A stretch of 61,597 nt of DNA from Enterovibrio baiacu (lineage in GTDB: Bacteria > Pseudomonadota > Gammaproteobacteria > Enterobacterales > Vibrionaceae), in contig NZ_SCHN01000028.1 in NCBI RefSeq assembly GCF_004120195.1, positions 1-61,597 on the forward strand. Reading direction: 5' to 3'. The position numbers and the translations under genes are program-made. This document shows, in pieces, positions 11,422-18,745 of this stretch. The notes beneath the pieces were generated by a model that searched no databases, was not told where the DNA came from, and was given only the letters and a program-made list of their open reading frames with translations. Numbering within the stretch: position 1 is the first letter of the stretch; each line of letters begins with the position of its first letter.

Positions 11422-12456
11422 ATGATCGAAATTAGTCAGGTTAATAAAGAATTCAAGCAAGGTGTGAAAACGATTCATGCTTTGCGTGATATTGACCTTC
11501 ACATTCCAAAGGGCAGGATTTTTGGGGTTATCGGCGCATCGGGCGCAGGTAAGAGCACCCTGATTCGCATTGTTAACTTGTTGGAACGCCCAACAAGCGG
11601 GACTGTGAACGTCGATGGCGTAGAACTCACCACCCTTTCAGCGTCAGAACTGACCCGTGAACGTCAGAAGATCGGCATGATCTTCCAGCACTTTAATCTT
11701 CTTTCGTCTCGCACAGTGTTTGATAACGTGGCGTTGCCCCTCGAACTCGCAGGCAAAGAACACGCACACATCCAAACCAAAGTCACCGAATTACTGGAGC
11801 TGGTTGGCCTTGAAGACAAACATACTAGCTACCCTTCGAACCTAAGTGGTGGACAAAAACAACGCGTCGCCATTGCACGCGCACTTGCCAGTGACCCTAA
11901 AGTCCTGCTTTGCGACGAAGCCACCAGCGCCTTGGACCCAGCCACTACCCACTCTATTTTGAATCTGCTGCAAACCATCAATCAGAAATTGGGGCTCACC
12001 ATTTTGCTGATCACCCATGAAATGGATGTGGTGAAGCGCATTTGTCATGAAGTGGCGATCATTGGCGACGGGAAATTGGTGGAAAAAGGCACGGTCGGCG
12101 ACATCTTCGCCCACCCTAAAACGGAACTGGCGCGTGACTTCATTCGTGCCACCTTGAACTTGTCGATTCCTCAAGATTACGCAGAACGCCTTCAAACCGA
12201 AAACACCGGTACGCTTCCTCCTTTGGTACGCCTTGAATTTACGGGTACCAGTGTGGATGCGCCGCTCGTGAGCCAAGTTTCCCGTAAGTTCAATATCGAT
12301 GTGAGCATTCTGAGCGCTGACATGGATTACGCAGGCGGCGTGAAATTCGGCCTTATGCTCGCCGAGTTTTTCGGCGATGCGTCGGACGTCACCAACGCCT
12401 TAGCGTATTTAAAAGAAAACAACGTCAACATCGAGGTACTTGGTTATGTCGCTTAG
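11422..12456 (+). CDS. metN: Methionine ABC importer ATP-binding protein MetN
   Basis: 344-residue ATPase that powers high-affinity methionine import. It begins [20 protein letters not shown], has Walker [10 protein letters not shown], the Q-loop region MIFQHFNLL, signature [15 protein letters not shown], Walker [13 protein letters not shown] and the H-loop ITHEMDV. Residues about 265-344 form the C-terminal NIL/C2 regulatory domain ([20 protein letters not shown]), which binds methionine and inhibits transport when the cell is replete. The length equals that of known MetN. The stop codon overlaps the start of metI. The met box operator upstream predicts MetJ control. Confidence 0.97.
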
Positions 12457-13138
12457 TATTGCTGCCGTTTCTGGCTGGTTCGCTGAAAACGAACGCCTTG
12501 TCAGCCTCTTGATTGATGCCCTCGGCCAAACCCTCACCATGGTGTTTGTCTCTGGCTTTGTTGGCTTTGTATTTGGTATCCCTTTGGGTGTTTTACTGCA
12601 CCTTTCCAAGCCGCGCGGATTGCTTGAAAACAAGCTTCTAAACCGCAGCCTAGGCGCGATCGTGAACATTGGGCGCTCGATTCCTTTCATCATTTTGCTG
12701 GTTGCCATCATTCCATTCACTCGCCTCGTCGTGGGCAGTTCGATCGGCACAGCAGCGGCGATTGTGCCTTTGATTGTGGGGGCGATTCCTTTCATTGCTC
12801 GCCTTGTTGAAGGTGCGCTGATTGAAGTGCCATCGGGCTTAGTAGAAGCCGCGCAAGCCATGGGGGCTACCCCATTACAAATCATCCGTAAGGTGCTGCT
12901 ACCCGAGGCTCTACCGGGCATCGTCAACGGCGCGACCATTACCTTGGTCACGCTGGTGAGCTATTCCGCCATGGCGGGAGCGGTTGGCGGTGGTGGTTTG
13001 GGTGATGTGGGGATTCGCTACGGATACCAACGCTTTGATGGCACCGTCATGATGATCACCATTGTCATGCTCGTTATTTTGGTTCAACTCATTCAGTCGG
13101 CGGGTGACTACTTCGTTAAACGCGTCGACCACAGATAA
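12446..13138 (+). CDS. metI: Methionine ABC importer permease MetI
   Basis: 230-residue permease with about five hydrophobic segments. The ABC permease EAA loop is visible as [20 protein letters not shown], followed by [15 protein letters not shown] and the [19 protein letters not shown] segment typical of MetI. The ATG at 12446 overlaps the last codons of metN by 11 bp, so translational coupling is likely. It forms the membrane channel with MetN as the ATPase and MetQ as the receptor. Confidence 0.97.
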
Positions 13139-13162
13139 AGCAGAACAACAGAAAAGAAAACG

Positions 13163-13202
13163 ATGGCGCAGAAAGGCGATATACCCATTCCTTCTGTGCC
13201 AT
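13163..13202 (+). other. Intergenic hairpin between metI and metQ
   Basis: atggcgcagaaagg (13163-13176) can pair with ccttctgtgccat (13190-13202) to form a long, slightly imperfect stem. No T-run follows, so it may stabilise the metQ message or mark an RNase site rather than stop transcription. Confidence 0.4.
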
Positions 13203-13247
13203 AGAAAATCAAAAAAATGGAAATTTAAGCTCATAGGAGATGCGCAA

Positions 13248-14060
13248 ATGACGTTTAATCTAAAAAAAATCGCGACGGTACTTGGTCTGGCTTCCGCGCT
13301 TGCATTGACGGGTTGCGGGGAAGAAAAAGCGGTTGATCTCACCAAAGTAAAAATCGGCGTAATGGCAGGTGCAGAAGAGCAAGTTGCAGAAATCGCAGTA
13401 AAAGTGGCGAAAGAAAAATACGGCCTAGACGTAGAGCTGATCACCTTTACAGATTACGTATCCCCCAATGCGGCATTGGAAGAAGGCTCGATTGATGCCA
13501 ACGCCTTCCAGCACAAACCTTACTTGGATCAGCAAATTTCTGACCGTGGCTACAAATTCGAAATCGCAGGCAATACCTTGGTTTACCCAATTGCAGGCTA
13601 CTCAAACACAGTGACCTCGGTTGACCAAATTCAAGATGGCGCACAAATCGCCGTGCCTAACGACCCAACAAACCTAGGCCGCTCTTTGCTGCTTCTTGAA
13701 CAGCAAGGTCTGCTAACACTGAAAGACGGTGTTGGCCTTCAAGCAACCGTGTTGGATATCGTGGGCAACCCGAAGAACTTGGACATTGTTGAGCTAGAAG
13801 CAGCGCAACTTCCTCGCTCACTGGATGACGTAACACTGGCGATCATTAACAACACTTACGCTGCAACCATTGGCCTTTCACAAGAAAAAGATGGCGTGTT
13901 TGTTGAAGACAAAGAATCCCCTTACGTGAACCTGATTGTTGCGCGCGCAGATAACGTGAATGCAGAAAACGTGAAGCAGTTTGTTTCTGCTTACCAGTCA
14001 GATGCGGTTTACACCGCAGCGGTAGACACCTTCCAAGGTGGTGTGGTGAAAGGCTGGTAA
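13248..14060 (+). CDS. metQ: Methionine-binding lipoprotein MetQ
   Basis: 270-residue lipoprotein of the NlpA family that delivers methionine to MetNI. The N terminus MTFNLKKIATVLGLASALAL leads into the lipobox LTGC. The body has VKIGVMAGAEEQVAEIA, NAFQHKPYLDQQ, IAVPNDPTNLGRSLLLLEQQ and NNTYAATIGLS, all standard for the family. The frame stays open upstream, but the ATG at 13248 has AGGAGA 7 nt before it and starts a proper signal peptide. It is followed by a strong terminator. Confidence 0.96.
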   Translation: MTFNLKKIATVLGLASALALTGCGEEKAVDLTKVKIGVMAGAEEQVAEIAVKVAKEKYGLDVELITFTDYVSPNAALEEGSIDANAFQHKPYLDQQISDRGYKFEIAGNTLVYPIAGYSNTVTSVDQIQDGAQIAVPNDPTNLGRSLLLLEQQGLLTLKDGVGLQATVLDIVGNPKNLDIVELEAAQLPRSLDDVTLAIINNTYAATIGLSQEKDGVFVEDKESPYVNLIVARADNVNAENVKQFVSAYQSDAVYTAAVDTFQGGVVKGW

Positions 14061-14099
14061 TTTGCCCATAACCTGATTCCTTTTTCTCCCCCAATGCCA

Positions 14100-14130
14100 A
14101 AAGCCTGTGTAAAACACAGGCTTTTTCTTT
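14100..14130 (+). terminator. Terminator of metNIQ
   Basis: Arms aagcctgtgt and acacaggctt with a 3-nt loop, followed by TTTTCTTTTT. Confidence 0.92.
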
Positions 14131-14183
14131 TTGTGCATGTCATCATGCGCGATGTTTTCTCAAAGGATGATTTTCGGGCGCAT

Positions 14184-14948
14184 ATGGATATTCTCGCCAC
14201 ACTCGGTCTTTTTGTCGGCTCGCTGATCGCAAACACCCTTGCATCACTTGCAGGTGGCGGTGCGGGCTTGCTGCAACTCCCCCTGCTTATTTTTCTCGGG
14301 CTCGCTTTTTCTGTCGCCCTCGCGACCCATAAAGTCGCCTCCGTTGCGCTTGGTTTAGGCGCAGCGATTCGTCACTGTCGAAGCGGTAATCTCAGTCTCG
14401 CCTTAACCGTTTACGTCACACTCGCCGGCGCTGCGGGTGTCATTGCAGGGGCAAACCTCATTCTGTTCATTCCAGGCCCAACGGCGGAAGGGTTGCTCGG
14501 TGTTTTCATCATCTTGTTGGGGCTGTATTCCCGCGCCCGAAAAACCTTGGGGCATGAAGCAGACCCTAAGCATCGCGATACTGTAGGCATGATCATCGGC
14601 TGTGCCGGCTTAAGTGCCATCGGCATACTGAATGGCTCGCTCACCGCAGGCACAGGCTTGTTCGTCACCCTCTTTTTGGTTCGATGGTTTGGACTGGATT
14701 ACAAACAAGCCGTCGCACTCACACTGGTCAGTGTTGGCCTATTTTGGAATGGATTAGGGGCTATCACCTTAGCCATTGCGGGTGCAGAGATTTACTGGCC
14801 ATGGATACCCGCCCTGCTTGTCGGCTCTTTGCTGGGAGGCTATCTCGGTGCCTACATGGCGGACAAATACAGCAACAAACTGATCAAAATTGCCTTTGAG
14901 CTGCTGACCTTTGCCGTCGGCATTAAATTGCTCGTGGGCGTGCTTTAA
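14184..14948 (+). CDS. TauE/SafE-family (sulfite/anion exporter-like) permease
   Basis: 254-residue inner-membrane protein with about eight hydrophobic segments. The duplicated signature of the family is visible: NTLASLAGGGAGLLQLPLLI near the N terminus and IGILNGSLTAGTGLFVTLFL in the second half. Members export sulfite, sulfoacetate or other small organic anions, but the substrate here is unknown. The frame extends upstream into the metQ terminator. I chose the ATG at 14184 because it gives a normal family start (MDILATLG) and length; no good ribosome site is visible, and the ATG at 14145 is an alternative. An Rdx-family gene follows 9 nt later, probably in the same transcript. Confidence 0.82.
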   Translation: MDILATLGLFVGSLIANTLASLAGGGAGLLQLPLLIFLGLAFSVALATHKVASVALGLGAAIRHCRSGNLSLALTVYVTLAGAAGVIAGANLILFIPGPTAEGLLGVFIILLGLYSRARKTLGHEADPKHRDTVGMIIGCAGLSAIGILNGSLTAGTGLFVTLFLVRWFGLDYKQAVALTLVSVGLFWNGLGAITLAIAGAEIYWPWIPALLVGSLLGGYLGAYMADKYSNKLIKIAFELLTFAVGIKLLVGVL

Positions 14949-14957
14949 GGAAGAAGA

Positions 14958-15230
14958 ATGAAAGCGCAGATTAAGATTTACTATTGTCGTCAATGCAACT
15001 GGATGTTGCGCTCAACCTGGATGAGCCAAGAGCTTCTAACGACGTTCAGTGAGGAAATTGAAAGCCTCACCCTACACCCCGACACTGGTGGGCGTTTTGA
15101 AGTGCATTGTAACGATGAAATGATCTGGGAAAGAAAGCGTGATGGTGGCTTCCCTGATGCAAAACAGCTAAAGCAACGGGTGCGCGACGTGATCGATCCG
15201 ACACGCAACCTTGGCCACGTTGACAGCTAA
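14958..15230 (+). CDS. Rdx-family SelW-like thioredoxin-fold protein
   Basis: 90-residue protein. IKIYYCRQCNWMLRSTWM carries the CxxC redox motif (C-R-Q-C) in the position of the CxxU site of eukaryotic selenoprotein W, and FSEEIESLTLHPDTGGRFEV plus ERKRDGGFPDAKQLKQRVRD match the rest of the Rdx (SelT/SelW/SelH) fold. Here the second position is Cys, and there is no in-frame TGA to suggest selenocysteine. Physiological substrate unknown; a thiol redox role is inferred. AAGGAAGAAG precedes the ATG, and the gene follows the TauE-like gene by 9 nt. Confidence 0.85.
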   Translation: MKAQIKIYYCRQCNWMLRSTWMSQELLTTFSEEIESLTLHPDTGGRFEVHCNDEMIWERKRDGGFPDAKQLKQRVRDVIDPTRNLGHVDS

Positions 15231-15373: not shown

Positions 15374-15769
15374 TCAGTCTGCCAACATGCCAAACATAAC
15401 AATACTGTTATAACTGACGATGCCTTTAATCTCACCATTTTCGACCACGGGCGCACGGCTTATGCCAAAACGTTCGAACAAACGCGCGCAGTATTTCACG
15501 TTCATGTCTGGGGACACACCCAGCGCAGGTTTGGTCATGATTTCATACACATTCACGCGTTCTGGCGACTTGTTCTGTGACAACACTTTCTTGGCGATGT
15601 CGTTCATCAATACCAAACCATACTCGTCATTCTCATCGCGTTTTTTCACGATCAGGCATTTGATTTCTTTGCTTCTCGCGATGCGAATGGCCTCGGCAAC
15701 CGTCGTTAAACCATCAATAAGCGCGAAATCGTCTTTCATCACTTCTCTCACGCATTTGCTCTCTTTCAT
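15374..15769 (-). CDS. CBS-pair protein of the DUF1538/PII-like operon
   Basis: 131-residue soluble protein made of two CBS motifs and little else. The first spans about 5-58 (VREVMKDDFALIDGLTTVAE, IKCLIVKKRDENDEYGLVLM). The second spans about 72-128 (VYEIMTKPALGVSPDMNVKY, RAPVVENGEIKGIVSYNSIV). CBS pairs usually bind adenine nucleotides and gate an attached or partner protein, often a transporter. It is the last gene of four on the minus strand. Its start overlaps the PII-like gene stop by 4 bp. The ligand is not readable from the sequence; adenylate sensing is an inference from the family. Confidence 0.88.
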   Translation of the reverse strand: MKESKCVREVMKDDFALIDGLTTVAEAIRIARSKEIKCLIVKKRDENDEYGLVLMNDIAKKVLSQNKSPERVNVYEIMTKPALGVSPDMNVKYCARLFERFGISRAPVVENGEIKGIVSYNSIVMFGMLAD

Positions 15770-16116
15770 AGCTCGTCCTCAATCACAGTACTGAGTTCTT
15801 GTACTTGGTGTGCCACGCCGACAGCATCTTCCACGTCGAGCTGTACCGCGATCCCTTTCCCTGAACTGGCATCAAACTCCCCGACTTCATTCACGGTTTC
15901 AAGAATGCTGCGTGCTAGGTGTTCCTCAACCAAAAACAGGACAACATCGCGTTGAACATCCAGCGTCAGGCCAAAGAAGGTTTTCTTTTTTGTCAGCCCT
16001 TCACCGCGCGCATTGTTGATGACCGTTGCCCCAGTTGCCCCCGCTTTACGTGCTGCATCAAGCACAGCATCTGTTTTTGAATCTTCAATAAAAGCGACGA
16101 TCAATTTAAACCGCAT
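15766..16116 (-). CDS. PII-like (GlnB-fold) signalling protein
   Basis: 116 residues with the PII ferredoxin-like pattern: [20 protein letters not shown] for strand 1 and helix 1, AARKAGATGATVINNARGEG leading into a T-loop region (about 36-52), VVLFLVEEHLARSILETVNE for strand 3 and helix 2, and SGKGIAVQLDVEDAVGV as the B-loop and last strand. The T-loop is altered: there is no YRGxEY motif, so uridylylation at Tyr51 is not expected. This places it among PII-like proteins (compare SbtB beside SbtA) rather than classic GlnB/GlnK. It overlaps both neighbours, which points to a regulator of the adjacent DUF1538 membrane proteins. CutA-like proteins share the fold and are an alternative. Confidence 0.8.
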   Translation of the reverse strand: MRFKLIVAFIEDSKTDAVLDAARKAGATGATVINNARGEGLTKKKTFFGLTLDVQRDVVLFLVEEHLARSILETVNEVGEFDASSGKGIAVQLDVEDAVGVAHQVQELSTVIEDEL

Positions 16117-16922
16117 TAGGATTCCCTCGTTTCGTTACTGACGCGTTGACGCCGGGCGACCCACTCCGTGATTTGGGCATAGCCCATGACGGTGATCATC
16201 GGAAAGAGACTGGCGAATGCTATTAACCCAAAACCATCAATCATGGGATTTCTCCCTGGTACCGTAGACGCAAGGCCAAGGCCGAGTGCTGTCACTAACG
16301 GTACGGTGACTGTCGAAGTCGTCACGCCACCGGAGTCATAGGCCAGTGGCACAATAAACTTCGGCGCATAAAAGGTTTGGATCACCACCAGCACATAGCC
16401 AGCAATGATGTAGTAATGAATCGGATCACCTTCCACGATGCGGTAGCAGCCGAGCGCTATCCCCATCGATACGCCAAGGGCGACAGAAAAACGCAAGCCA
16501 TTGACGCTGATAGCACCGCCAGAGACTTGCGCTGCTTTAATGGCGACGGCTATCAAAGAAGGCTCTGCCACCGTGGTACTGAAGCCGATGGCTGCCGCGA
16601 AAATGTAAACCCAGTAATAGTGCTGCCATTGCACTTCCGCAGGCATGATGCCGCCTTCCCCAAAGAGAAATTCGGGTGCCGTGAGCTGAATTGCCATGGA
16701 CTCACCAAGCGGGAACAGCGCCATTTCCAGCCCCATCAAAAACAGCGTTAACCCAAACAACACGTACGCAAAACCAAACGCGATCCGTTTGAGGTTGGCG
16801 ATGGGCTGACGTAACACCGCAAATTGGAAACCAAACAAAATACACACGATGGGAAACACATCGCGTACGGTCGAGAGGAAGGTATCAATGAAGGTAGGAA
16901 TAAGGGATTGCAACAAGGTCAT
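16116..16922 (-). CDS. DUF1538 membrane protein (second paralogue)
   Basis: 268-residue polytopic inner-membrane protein, a paralogue of the gene upstream. Shared segments include [45 protein letters not shown], and [20 protein letters not shown] followed by [20 protein letters not shown]. The two TT-x-x-x-x-P elements, one in each half, suggest an internal duplication. An extra loop after the ESMA motif ([20 protein letters not shown]) distinguishes it from its partner. The family is uncharacterised; a transporter is inferred from topology and from its PII-like and CBS partners. Its start overlaps the upstream stop by 4 bp, and its stop touches the PII-like start. Confidence 0.88.
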
Positions 16923-17653
16923 ATCGCCACCATGCCGTAAACCATGACGAAAATCATCGGAGAAAGTGAGGCAAACGCAATCAGGCCAAAGCCGTCAACC
17001 ATGGGGTTTCGCCCTTTGATCACCGTGGCGAGCCCGACCCCCAGCGCCGTCACTAAAGGCACGGTAATGGTCGATGTGGTGACGCCGCCAGAATCGTAGG
17101 CGATACCGATGATATAGCGCGGCGCGATCATCGTCATCGCAACCACCAAGAGATAACCACCAATGATGATGCGATGAATTGGCCAGCCTTTAAGGATACG
17201 CAATACACCCAGCATGATGGCAAAACCCACAGAGAGCGCGACCGTGATCCTTAGGCCATTGGCGTAGCTGTCCTGCGCTTCCATCGCCATGGGGATCATT
17301 CCCCCTTCCGCCGCGACTTCTGCCGCTTCCGCAGCCACAGCAGTGAGCGCAGGTTCAGCGATAGTCGTGCCAAAACCGAGCAGGAACGCAAACACCATCA
17401 GCCAAAAAACACTGCCTTTTCGAGCGAGTGCGTGCGCCATGGATTCGCCAATCGGAAACAGGCCCATTTCGAGGCCAAAGACAAAGAAGGTAAGCCCCAT
17501 CACCACCAGCACGAGGCCAACGAGGATAGACGCAAGATCAGGCATGGGTTGTTGAAGCACAAACACTTGGAAGAAGCCGATCACCAAAATAATCGGAAGC
17601 AAGTCTTTAAAACTTCCCAACATAGCGGATAGCAATGCAGTGATTCCCTTCAC
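16919..17653 (-). CDS. DUF1538 membrane protein (first paralogue)
   Basis: 244-residue polytopic membrane protein, first gene of the four-gene operon. Residues 94-103 read [10 protein letters not shown] and residues 188-201 [14 protein letters not shown]; the similar polar TT...P elements, each followed by an Ala/Val-rich helix, suggest two structural repeats, as in carriers with paired re-entrant loops. LFPIGESMA (about 65-73) and [20 protein letters not shown] (about 213-232) are the other conserved blocks. About seven to eight hydrophobic segments are visible. An Ala/Glu-rich loop ([11 protein letters not shown]) follows the first motif. No function is established for DUF1538 to my knowledge. 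Confidence 0.88.
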
Positions 17654-17848: not shown

Positions 17849-18745
17849 ATGCACATTCTAATTACTGGTGGGACAGGTCTCATTGGCCGCACTTTGATCA
17901 GCAAACTCGGTGACCACGAAATCACCGTGCTTACGCGCTCGCCTCAAAAAGCGAAAAGCGTGCTGCCTTCAACCGTCACCACCATTGCAGATCTCGATGA
18001 ACTCACGGACTTCAACAACATCGATGCAGTGATTAATTTGGCAGGCGAACCCATTGTCGATAAGCGTTGGTCAGATCAGCAAAAAGGCATCATTTGCTCA
18101 AGCCGATGGGGCATCACAGAAAAAATCGTTAGCCGCATTCTCACCGCTGACAATCCGCCTAAAACGCTGATAAGCGGCTCGGCGGTGGGCTATTACAGCG
18201 ACCAGAAAGGCGCGATTGTCGATGAGTCTCTGGTGGTGGATGCCACGGATTTCGCCCATGCTGTGTGCGCAAATTGGGAAAAAATCGCCTTACGCGCCAA
18301 ACCCGCTAAAACCCGTGTCTGTTTGCTAAGAACGGGCATTGTTCTTAGCAAAGAAGGTGGAGCTCTGAAGAAGATGCTTCTGCCTTATCAATTGGGTTTG
18401 GGTGGCCCAATCGCCGATGGGACTCAGTACTTCCCTTGGATTCATATCGAAGACATGGCCAATGCCATCGTGCATCTTCTCACTAACAGTGAAGCGAATG
18501 GGGCATTTAACCTCACAGCGCCAAACCCCGTCACTAACCGCGAGTTCAGCCAAAGTCTGGCGGCCTCTCTTGGGCGACCACACATTCTGTTTACACCCGC
18601 GTTTGCCATCAAATTGATGCTGGGCGAAGCAGGGCAATTGCTGTTAGAAGGACAACGCGCCATCCCAAAAGCATTGGAAACAGATGGGTTCGAATTTACC
18701 TACACAGAAATTCGCCCAGCGCTCGACAACTTGCTTCGCCAGTAA
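17849..18745 (+). CDS. yfcH: TIGR01777-type NAD(P)-dependent epimerase/oxidoreductase YfcH
   Basis: 298-residue cytoplasmic Rossmann protein of the extended SDR superfamily. It begins MHILITGGTGLIGRTLISKL with the GGTGxIG dinucleotide motif, continues with AVINLAGEPIVDKRWSDQQK, SGSAVGYYSD and RTGIVLSKEGGALKKML, and ends with a DUF1731-like tail (VWR/PxF region near 230-295). The length matches E. coli YfcH. The reaction it catalyses is unknown. It is divergent from the DUF1538 operon and has its own terminator. Confidence 0.9.
   Translation: MHILITGGTGLIGRTLISKLGDHEITVLTRSPQKAKSVLPSTVTTIADLDELTDFNNIDAVINLAGEPIVDKRWSDQQKGIICSSRWGITEKIVSRILTADNPPKTLISGSAVGYYSDQKGAIVDESLVVDATDFAHAVCANWEKIALRAKPAKTRVCLLRTGIVLSKEGGALKKMLLPYQLGLGGPIADGTQYFPWIHIEDMANAIVHLLTNSEANGAFNLTAPNPVTNREFSQSLAASLGRPHILFTPAFAIKLMLGEAGQLLLEGQRAIPKALETDGFEFTYTEIRPALDNLLRQ

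Follow-up and report, generated by a model that had tools for sequence, protein, structure and literature searches.

On the minus strand of contig NZ_SCHN01000028.1 from Enterovibrio baiacu (assembly GCF_004120195.1; the whole analysed stretch of 61,597 nucleotides is called the window), four genes are arranged in the order umpA, umpB, PII-like gene and CBS-pair gene according to the open reading frame (ORF) analysis. This operon probably encodes a monovalent cation/proton antiporter of the UmpAB type, in which two DUF1538 subunits would lie antiparallel in the membrane and be gated by the PII-like protein; to our knowledge, PII gating of an antiporter would be without precedent. The reading is carried by the conserved position of the PII-like gene directly downstream of DUF1538, by natural fusions of UmpA, UmpB and the PII-like protein into one chain, and by the opposite loop charges of UmpA and UmpB. 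Adjacency and fusion suggest that the PII-like sensor switches the UmpAB exchanger on or off.

The DUF1538 pair and its relation to UmpAB

The profile PF07556 (DUF1538) was matched by UmpA with 235.4 bits and by UmpB with 225.1 bits (cut-off 22.6). DUF1538 was the sole significant family in the transporter proteins: no other Pfam relative of UmpA or UmpB was found below E 0.04 in a search to E 10, and the pair does not belong to the SbtA transporter family. The best NCBIfam matches were NF041627 (UmpA, 371.5 bits) for UmpA and NF041628 (UmpB, 341.2 bits) for UmpB, the curated equivalog cut-offs being 490 and 500, respectively. Because the scores lie below these cut-offs despite best matches in the right order, we class the pair, on sequence grounds, as a homologue of UmpAB with paired DUF1538 proteins and not as an NCBIfam equivalog. 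The NCBIfam name of the family is Na,Li,K/H+ antiporter UmpA/UmpB.

UmpAB was published in 2017 by Meng et al. as a heteromeric Na+(Li+,K+)/H+ antiporter of Halomonas zhaodongensis (PMC5484666; this paper, PMC10710835 and PMC3962082 are cited from the accessible parts of their texts). With this paper and the two NCBIfam models at hand, the description of the operon as an undescribed membrane system in the first-pass annotation of the window has to be given up. Co-expression of the Halomonas genes in E. coli KNabc, in which three Na+/H+ antiporters are missing, conferred salt and alkali tolerance together with pH-dependent Na+(Li+,K+)/H+ exchange; UmpA and UmpB co-precipitated, and both genes were needed for the full effect (PMC5484666). 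The Halomonas pair resembles that of the window in its start/stop overlap, in the seven transmembrane helices predicted for each protein and in the conserved acidic residues remarked on by its authors. It differs in that the main text of the paper contains no mention of P-II or CBS and its accessible parts propose no inverted topology, and the window proteins score under the equivalog cut-offs. The cloned insert carried four ORFs, none of them PII-like or CBS in the accessible description (PMC5484666). The UmpAB core therefore functions without these partners in E. coli, and the PII-like and CBS proteins look like regulators rather than core parts.

We consider unlikely the alternative that the PII-like protein truly regulates UmpAB but that Na+/H+ is not what the transporter handles in its native cell; it would then move another solute, and the antiport measured in E. 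coli vesicles would be a side activity. Many of the genera with homologues are marine, halophilic or alkaliphilic, which speaks against it. The salt and alkali tolerance and the pH-dependent exchange of Na+, Li+ and K+ conferred by UmpAB (PMC5484666) point the same way, whereas the alternative draws on the single heterologous characterization that surfaced in the literature search and on the fact that the PII-controlled transporters AmtB, Amt1, SbtA, NrtABCD and UrtABCDE carry metabolites or ammonium (PMC10710835).

Linkage of the PII-like and CBS genes to DUF1538

A neighbourhood survey of DUF1538, as had been proposed in the first-pass annotation, was performed with profiles for DUF1538, the PII-like protein and CBS; its first three sets consist of the best-scoring DUF1538 matches and are not random draws. 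Of 247 genomes sampled from the window's family, 181 contained DUF1538; in a sample of 398 genomes from its phylum the number was 126. The PII-like gene was located on the same strand directly downstream of DUF1538 in 30/30 loci from the window's family (L003–L032), in 29/29 loci of a phylum-wide draw (L033–L061, at least six of the 29 again from the window's family) and in all 77 decidable loci of a wide genome-contig scan (best 80 of 587 loci, L062–L141, three of which end too early). A CBS gene then followed in 30/30 window-family loci, in 23/23 decidable phylum-wide loci (six undecidable) and, within the wide scan, in 57/57 loci with a separate PII-like gene. Among loci hand-picked across genera (L142–L161; L153 empty) the PII-like gene was found in 18/19 and the CBS gene in 13/18. 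A second picked set composed partly of odd cases (L162–L181) contained DUF1538 in 11 loci; the PII-like gene lay downstream in nine of these, and CBS was present in none of the nine.

A genome-by-genome count was made with 63 of the 126 DUF1538-positive phylum genomes, hand-chosen to spread over genera, and a PII-like match was obtained in 62 of them. Among the matches listed, 150 DUF1538 places formed 77 clusters in 60 genomes. The PII-like gene was placed 36–264 bp downstream by coordinates in 69 clusters, and three further clusters proved to be linked on inspection (two, L172 and L173, with a match outside the list, and one with the PII-like gene just upstream, L177 and L200), so that 72/77 have it adjacent. 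Conversely, 21 of 90 PII-like places in this count were unlinked. A search of plasmids returned nine records; in all eight examined (six clostridial, two alphaproteobacterial) a PF00543 gene follows DUF1538. The six clostridial loci (L185, L186, L189–L192) all carry a fused DUF1538 gene and, behind it, a gene for a protein with two PII-like domains in tandem. The length of this protein is 217–224 aa wherever its start can be clearly assigned, and L190 has a weak first domain. For the neighbourhood of the Halomonas clade, 121 genomes of the family of G382 were searched with NF041627, of which 40 matched and none reached the cut-off. Eight of the ten best unfused loci of that family (L193–L202) have the PII-like gene, placed upstream of umpA in L200 and L202; L194 and L197 end too early for a decision.

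The PII-like gene is thus a near-constant partner of DUF1538 and the CBS gene a frequent one. The coupling of DUF1538 to a PII-like protein proposed in the first-pass annotation is borne out by conserved adjacency and natural fusion, and its coupling to CBS holds in many lineages but not as a constant.

Fusion was accepted where DUF1538 and PII matches occurred in a single stop-free frame; 'PII' ORFs of 276–611 aa (L108, L111, L114, L118) are long overlapping frames and were not counted as fused. UmpA, UmpB and the PII-like protein form one chain of about 640–690 aa in 20 of the 77 decidable wide-scan loci (L079–L082, L086–L089, L091–L101, L103), 19 of them campylobacterotal (or, in older naming, epsilonproteobacterial) by title and one titled as a Kangiella metagenome-assembled genome. 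No CBS match was found within 600 bp downstream in any of the 20 loci, nor elsewhere on those loci. A homologue search with one fusion protein listed 120 close relatives, the query among them, and 117 of these are annotated with both Pfam domains; a profile of the triple fusion matched only PII chains among solved structures. Misbinning of the contig could account for the Kangiella copy (L103).

It is improbable that the PII-like and CBS genes are merely co-transcribed with umpAB without any contact of their products with the antiporter. Adjacency alone can come from co-regulation, the two genes occur together but apart from UmpAB in G329 and G360, five of the 77 clusters are unlinked among the matches listed and orphan PII-like copies exist; set against this are the natural fusion of the PII-like protein onto the UmpB C-terminus and an adjacency kept from Clostridia to Gammaproteobacteria.

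Some further arrangements were seen in the survey. The loci L170–L175 and L181 contain a second, divergent DUF1538 class, fused and 567–601 aa long where complete, with an adjoining PII-like gene that is also divergent and with no CBS match. L200 and L202 (also L177) show a compound operon of fused UmpAB, PII-like gene, CBS, second PII-like gene and separate UmpA and UmpB. PII-like genes without adjoining DUF1538 recur in L162, L163, L165, L166, L168, L169 and L180 in neighbourhoods that, by eye, are argB-like/glutamate-cysteine-ligase-like or mutS/secA-like. The fetched PII-like places without nearby DUF1538 belong to families f47 and f60, and L207 and L209 to f59.

Membrane topology and conserved residues

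Seven peaks per DUF1538 protein were seen by eye in averaged hydropathy plots, and seven transmembrane helices are also predicted for both Halomonas subunits (PMC5484666). The charge bias was calculated from the counts of K+R in the six loops, odd minus even. It amounts to -5 for UmpA and +4 for UmpB of the window, and the mean values for 155 pairs are -2.9 for UmpA (negative in 142/155) and +4.3 for UmpB (positive in 154/155), that is, in opposite phase; the bias of UmpB exceeds that of UmpA in 153/155 pairs, which are related in sequence and hence not independent. Upon thinning at 80% identity, UmpB exceeded UmpA in 52/54 pairs (UmpA negative in 43, UmpB positive in 54), and the opposite bias of the two homologous genes became weaker after thinning at 60%. 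Among 12 distant loci, five of which (L170–L174) are also within the set of 155 and seven outside it, the second domain had the higher bias in 12/12 and the first was negative in eight, the five clostridial loci being the clearest.

The loop charges support an inversion of UmpA and UmpB relative to each other and predict an antiparallel heterodimer of seven-helix subunits with the C-terminus of UmpB, the point of PII fusion, in the cytoplasm. The linkers of 86 fused pairs are acidic (mean 5.2 D+E, 1.0 K+R), with a strongly hydrophobic 19-residue window in 5/86; the N-terminus of unfused UmpB has 0.1 K+R versus 1.2 D+E and that of UmpA 1.6 K+R versus 0.6 D+E. Domains of seven helices each, joined by a linker on the outside and ending in the cytoplasm, would agree with the attachment of PII at the C-terminus. 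Homologous gene pairs have been proposed to be antiparallel from K+R bias before, as for YdgE/YdgF and DUF606, and one family of that type has two-domain fusions (PMC3962082). UmpA/UmpB differ from these pairs in being seven-helix proteins with a PII partner, and their odd helix count permits direct fusion without an added helix.

An alternative that we also hold to be quite improbable is that each DUF1538 protein is an inverted repeat with paired re-entrant loops and that UmpA and UmpB are parallel. It takes up the internal duplication put forward in the first-pass annotation, where a TT-x-x-x-x-P element was described in both halves. TT..P elements are indeed present in both halves of UmpA; the spacing, however, is x3 in one and x5 in the other (T96-T97-x3-P101 and T192-T193-x5-P199), and the first TT is variable (T96 in 114/155 and T97 in 116/155 UmpA sequences). 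A half-versus-half profile comparison was performed for UmpA with one split point and with 20 column-permuted profiles and one reversed profile as controls. The halves gave 13.3 bits (E 0.15, probability 0.4%), within the range of the permuted controls (9.0–14.8 bits; one of the 20 scored higher than the true halves) and close to the reversed one (13.0). The duplication is therefore rejected at the sequence level only, and structure can conceal repeats invisible in sequence; seven helices and the opposite charge bias favour the antiparallel arrangement. The invariant E100 and near-invariant D187 are in line with the conserved acidic residues remarked on for the Halomonas proteins (PMC5484666).

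The PII-like and CBS proteins and the proposed mechanism

The PII-like protein belongs to the PII superfamily, matching PF00543 with 42.2 bits (gathering cut-off 25). Its closest named relatives, from Enterovibrio and Grimontia, are 94% identical, and databases label such relatives 'P-II family nitrogen regulator'. In an alignment of 40 diverse members G26, T31, F47, G49 and G100 are invariant (40/40), and the T-loop consensus is approximately KKTFFGLTLE. The E. baiacu genome contains a single DUF1538 pair and three PII-family genes, two of them canonical in addition to that of the operon, which is 28% identical to the first canonical protein. In an alignment with these two proteins, the T-loop is five residues shorter and no tyrosine is found at the modification site, which we take to be Tyr51 of canonical PII; the absence of a uridylylation-type T-loop had correctly been recognized at first pass. 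At the positions of K90, R101 and R103 (numbering assumed to be that of canonical PII) the residues are changed, and the altered positions presumably are phosphate contacts of canonical PII. In T-loop length, modified tyrosine and K90/R101/R103 the protein thus departs from canonical GlnB/GlnK. That it is nevertheless an ordinary nitrogen-regulating GlnB/GlnK, tying the transporter to 2-oxoglutarate and uridylylation, is hardly credible: the PF00543 score and the database name agree with it, but two canonical PII genes exist besides, and the tyrosine and the residues at K90, R101 and R103 are absent. The PII-like profile matches known PII structures weakly (best 9p1x, E 1.2e-6; SbtB, E 0.021).

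Among solved structures, CBS-CP12 (PDB 5nmu, E 3.9e-24) comes nearest to the CBS pair in sequence; the match to the 131-aa protein of the window covers the CBS pair and nothing else. As a guess, the CBS pair may add a nucleotide signal.

In the PII-gated antiporter that we favour, UmpA and UmpB would be inserted oppositely as homologous seven-helix subunits of an antiparallel heterodimer, and the acidic residues E100 and D187 of both could be the site of Na+(K+,Li+)/H+ exchange. As a dedicated cytoplasmic subunit, the PII-like protein would use its short T-loop with the FFGL tip to dock on the cytoplasmic side of the antiporter, perhaps near the UmpB C-terminus, where PII is fused in many Campylobacterota. 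Binding of a small molecule to it might inhibit or gate the exchange reversibly, the ligand, direction and stoichiometry being conjectural, and in some lineages the CBS pair might modulate PII control as an additional sensor. Two points favour inhibition over activation: in E. coli the core is active in the absence of PII, and the PII-controlled transporters in PMC10710835 are inhibited. SbtA/SbtB offers a works-like analogy as a Na+-linked membrane transporter controlled by a PII-family protein (PMC10710835), with the differences that SbtA belongs to another transporter family and that the PII-like profile of the window reaches SbtB only at the E value given above. AmtB/GlnK shares the linkage of a PII gene to a transporter gene and provides a model for T-loop-transporter contact (PMC10710835); GlnK, however, is uridylylated, whereas the window T-loop is short and lacks the tyrosine, and ammonium is transported there versus cation/proton antiport here.

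Several observations weigh against this reading. No binding or transport assay of the PII-like protein was found in the open-access literature, and both window subunits fall below the NCBIfam equivalog cut-offs. Nine loci of L162–L181 carry the PII-like gene without DUF1538 nearby. The clusters without adjacent PII-like gene are G338:C78 (L160), G365:C189 (L205), G486, G329 and G360, three of which (G365:C189, G329, G360) were confirmed as unlinked by fetching their loci. No PII-like gene was found anywhere in the genome of G486 (L178), and in G329 and G360 the PII-like and CBS genes form a separate unit on another contig (L207, L209; UmpAB in L206, L208). The clostridial tandem protein does not fit a simple 1:1:1 trimer, and the stoichiometry may thus differ from that of single-PII systems. 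As to topology, the loops of the window proteins had already been inspected when the loop borders were chosen. With the set thinned at 60% identity, UmpB exceeded UmpA in 10/11 pairs, but UmpA was negative in only seven (UmpB positive in 11); at 50%, UmpB exceeded UmpA in 6/6 pairs, with UmpA negative in three (UmpB positive in six). The tail of UmpB is only slightly net positive (3.4 K+R versus 2.8 D+E fused; 3.7 versus 2.6 unfused).

The UmpAB antiporter, the PII control of transporters (PMC10710835) and antiparallel gene pairs (PMC3962082) are already known. The combination of UmpAB with PII, its fusion and its cross-phylum conservation appear to be new within the open-access literature searched: a link of UmpAB to PII or CBS was not reported there, which is weak evidence from an open-access subset, and PII and DUF1538 co-occurred only where PII named an unrelated sequence motif. 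We give an even chance to the broader statement that UmpAB-PII is a widespread, directly PII-controlled antiporter whose range extends from Clostridia to Vibrionaceae and Campylobacterota, that its two seven-helix halves are inserted in opposite senses and that PII is covalently attached in many Campylobacterota. If true, PII signalling would extend to pH and sodium homeostasis, which would be tied to a metabolite signal through a PII-like subunit present in several phyla and fused in one, plus a CBS sensor in some lineages; proteins named 'P-II family nitrogen regulator' would shift to ion transport. The proposal also offers an architecture of DUF1538 that can be tested directly; the structure search yielded no solved structure of this family (none similar to UmpB at E up to 1).

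The features of the operon are collated in the table. The genes overlap by 4 bp (umpA/umpB, 16919–16922), 1 bp (umpB/PII-like gene, 16116) and 4 bp (PII-like/CBS gene, 15766–15769), in agreement with the gene order and overlaps first annotated. The stem-loop possibly marks the end of the operon, an argument from its position and not from the count of terminator-like sites (three observed versus a shuffle mean of 3.5).

Table. Coordinates of the features in the window.
Feature	Position	Strand	Remarks
umpA	16919..17653	-	DUF1538 subunit 1; 244 aa; GTG start
umpA, predicted topology	16919..17653	-	7 transmembrane helices, N-terminus inside, C-terminus outside
umpA, TTIAEP element (residues 96-101)	17351..17368	-	E100 and P101 in 317/317 domains
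umpA, D187..P199 element	17057..17095	-	D187 in 316/317 domains
umpB	16116..16922	-	DUF1538 subunit 2; 268 aa
umpB, predicted topology	16116..16922	-	7 transmembrane helices, inverted versus UmpA, C-tail cytoplasmic
PII-like subunit gene	15766..16116	-	116 aa; short T-loop
PII-like residues 37-56, shortened T-loop	15949..16008	-	signature KKTFFGLTL; F47 and G49 in 40/40
CBS-pair protein gene	15374..15769	-	131 aa; two PF00571 stretches; partner frequent, not constant
Terminator-like stem-loop	15354..15387	-	14 pairs; covers CBS stop codon

The neighbouring genes were assigned by eye, with no family search made. Downstream (11422–15230) lie methionine-uptake-like ABC genes, a TSUP-like permease and an Rdx/SelT-like small protein; upstream (17849–18745) lies a divergent sugar-epimerase-like gene.

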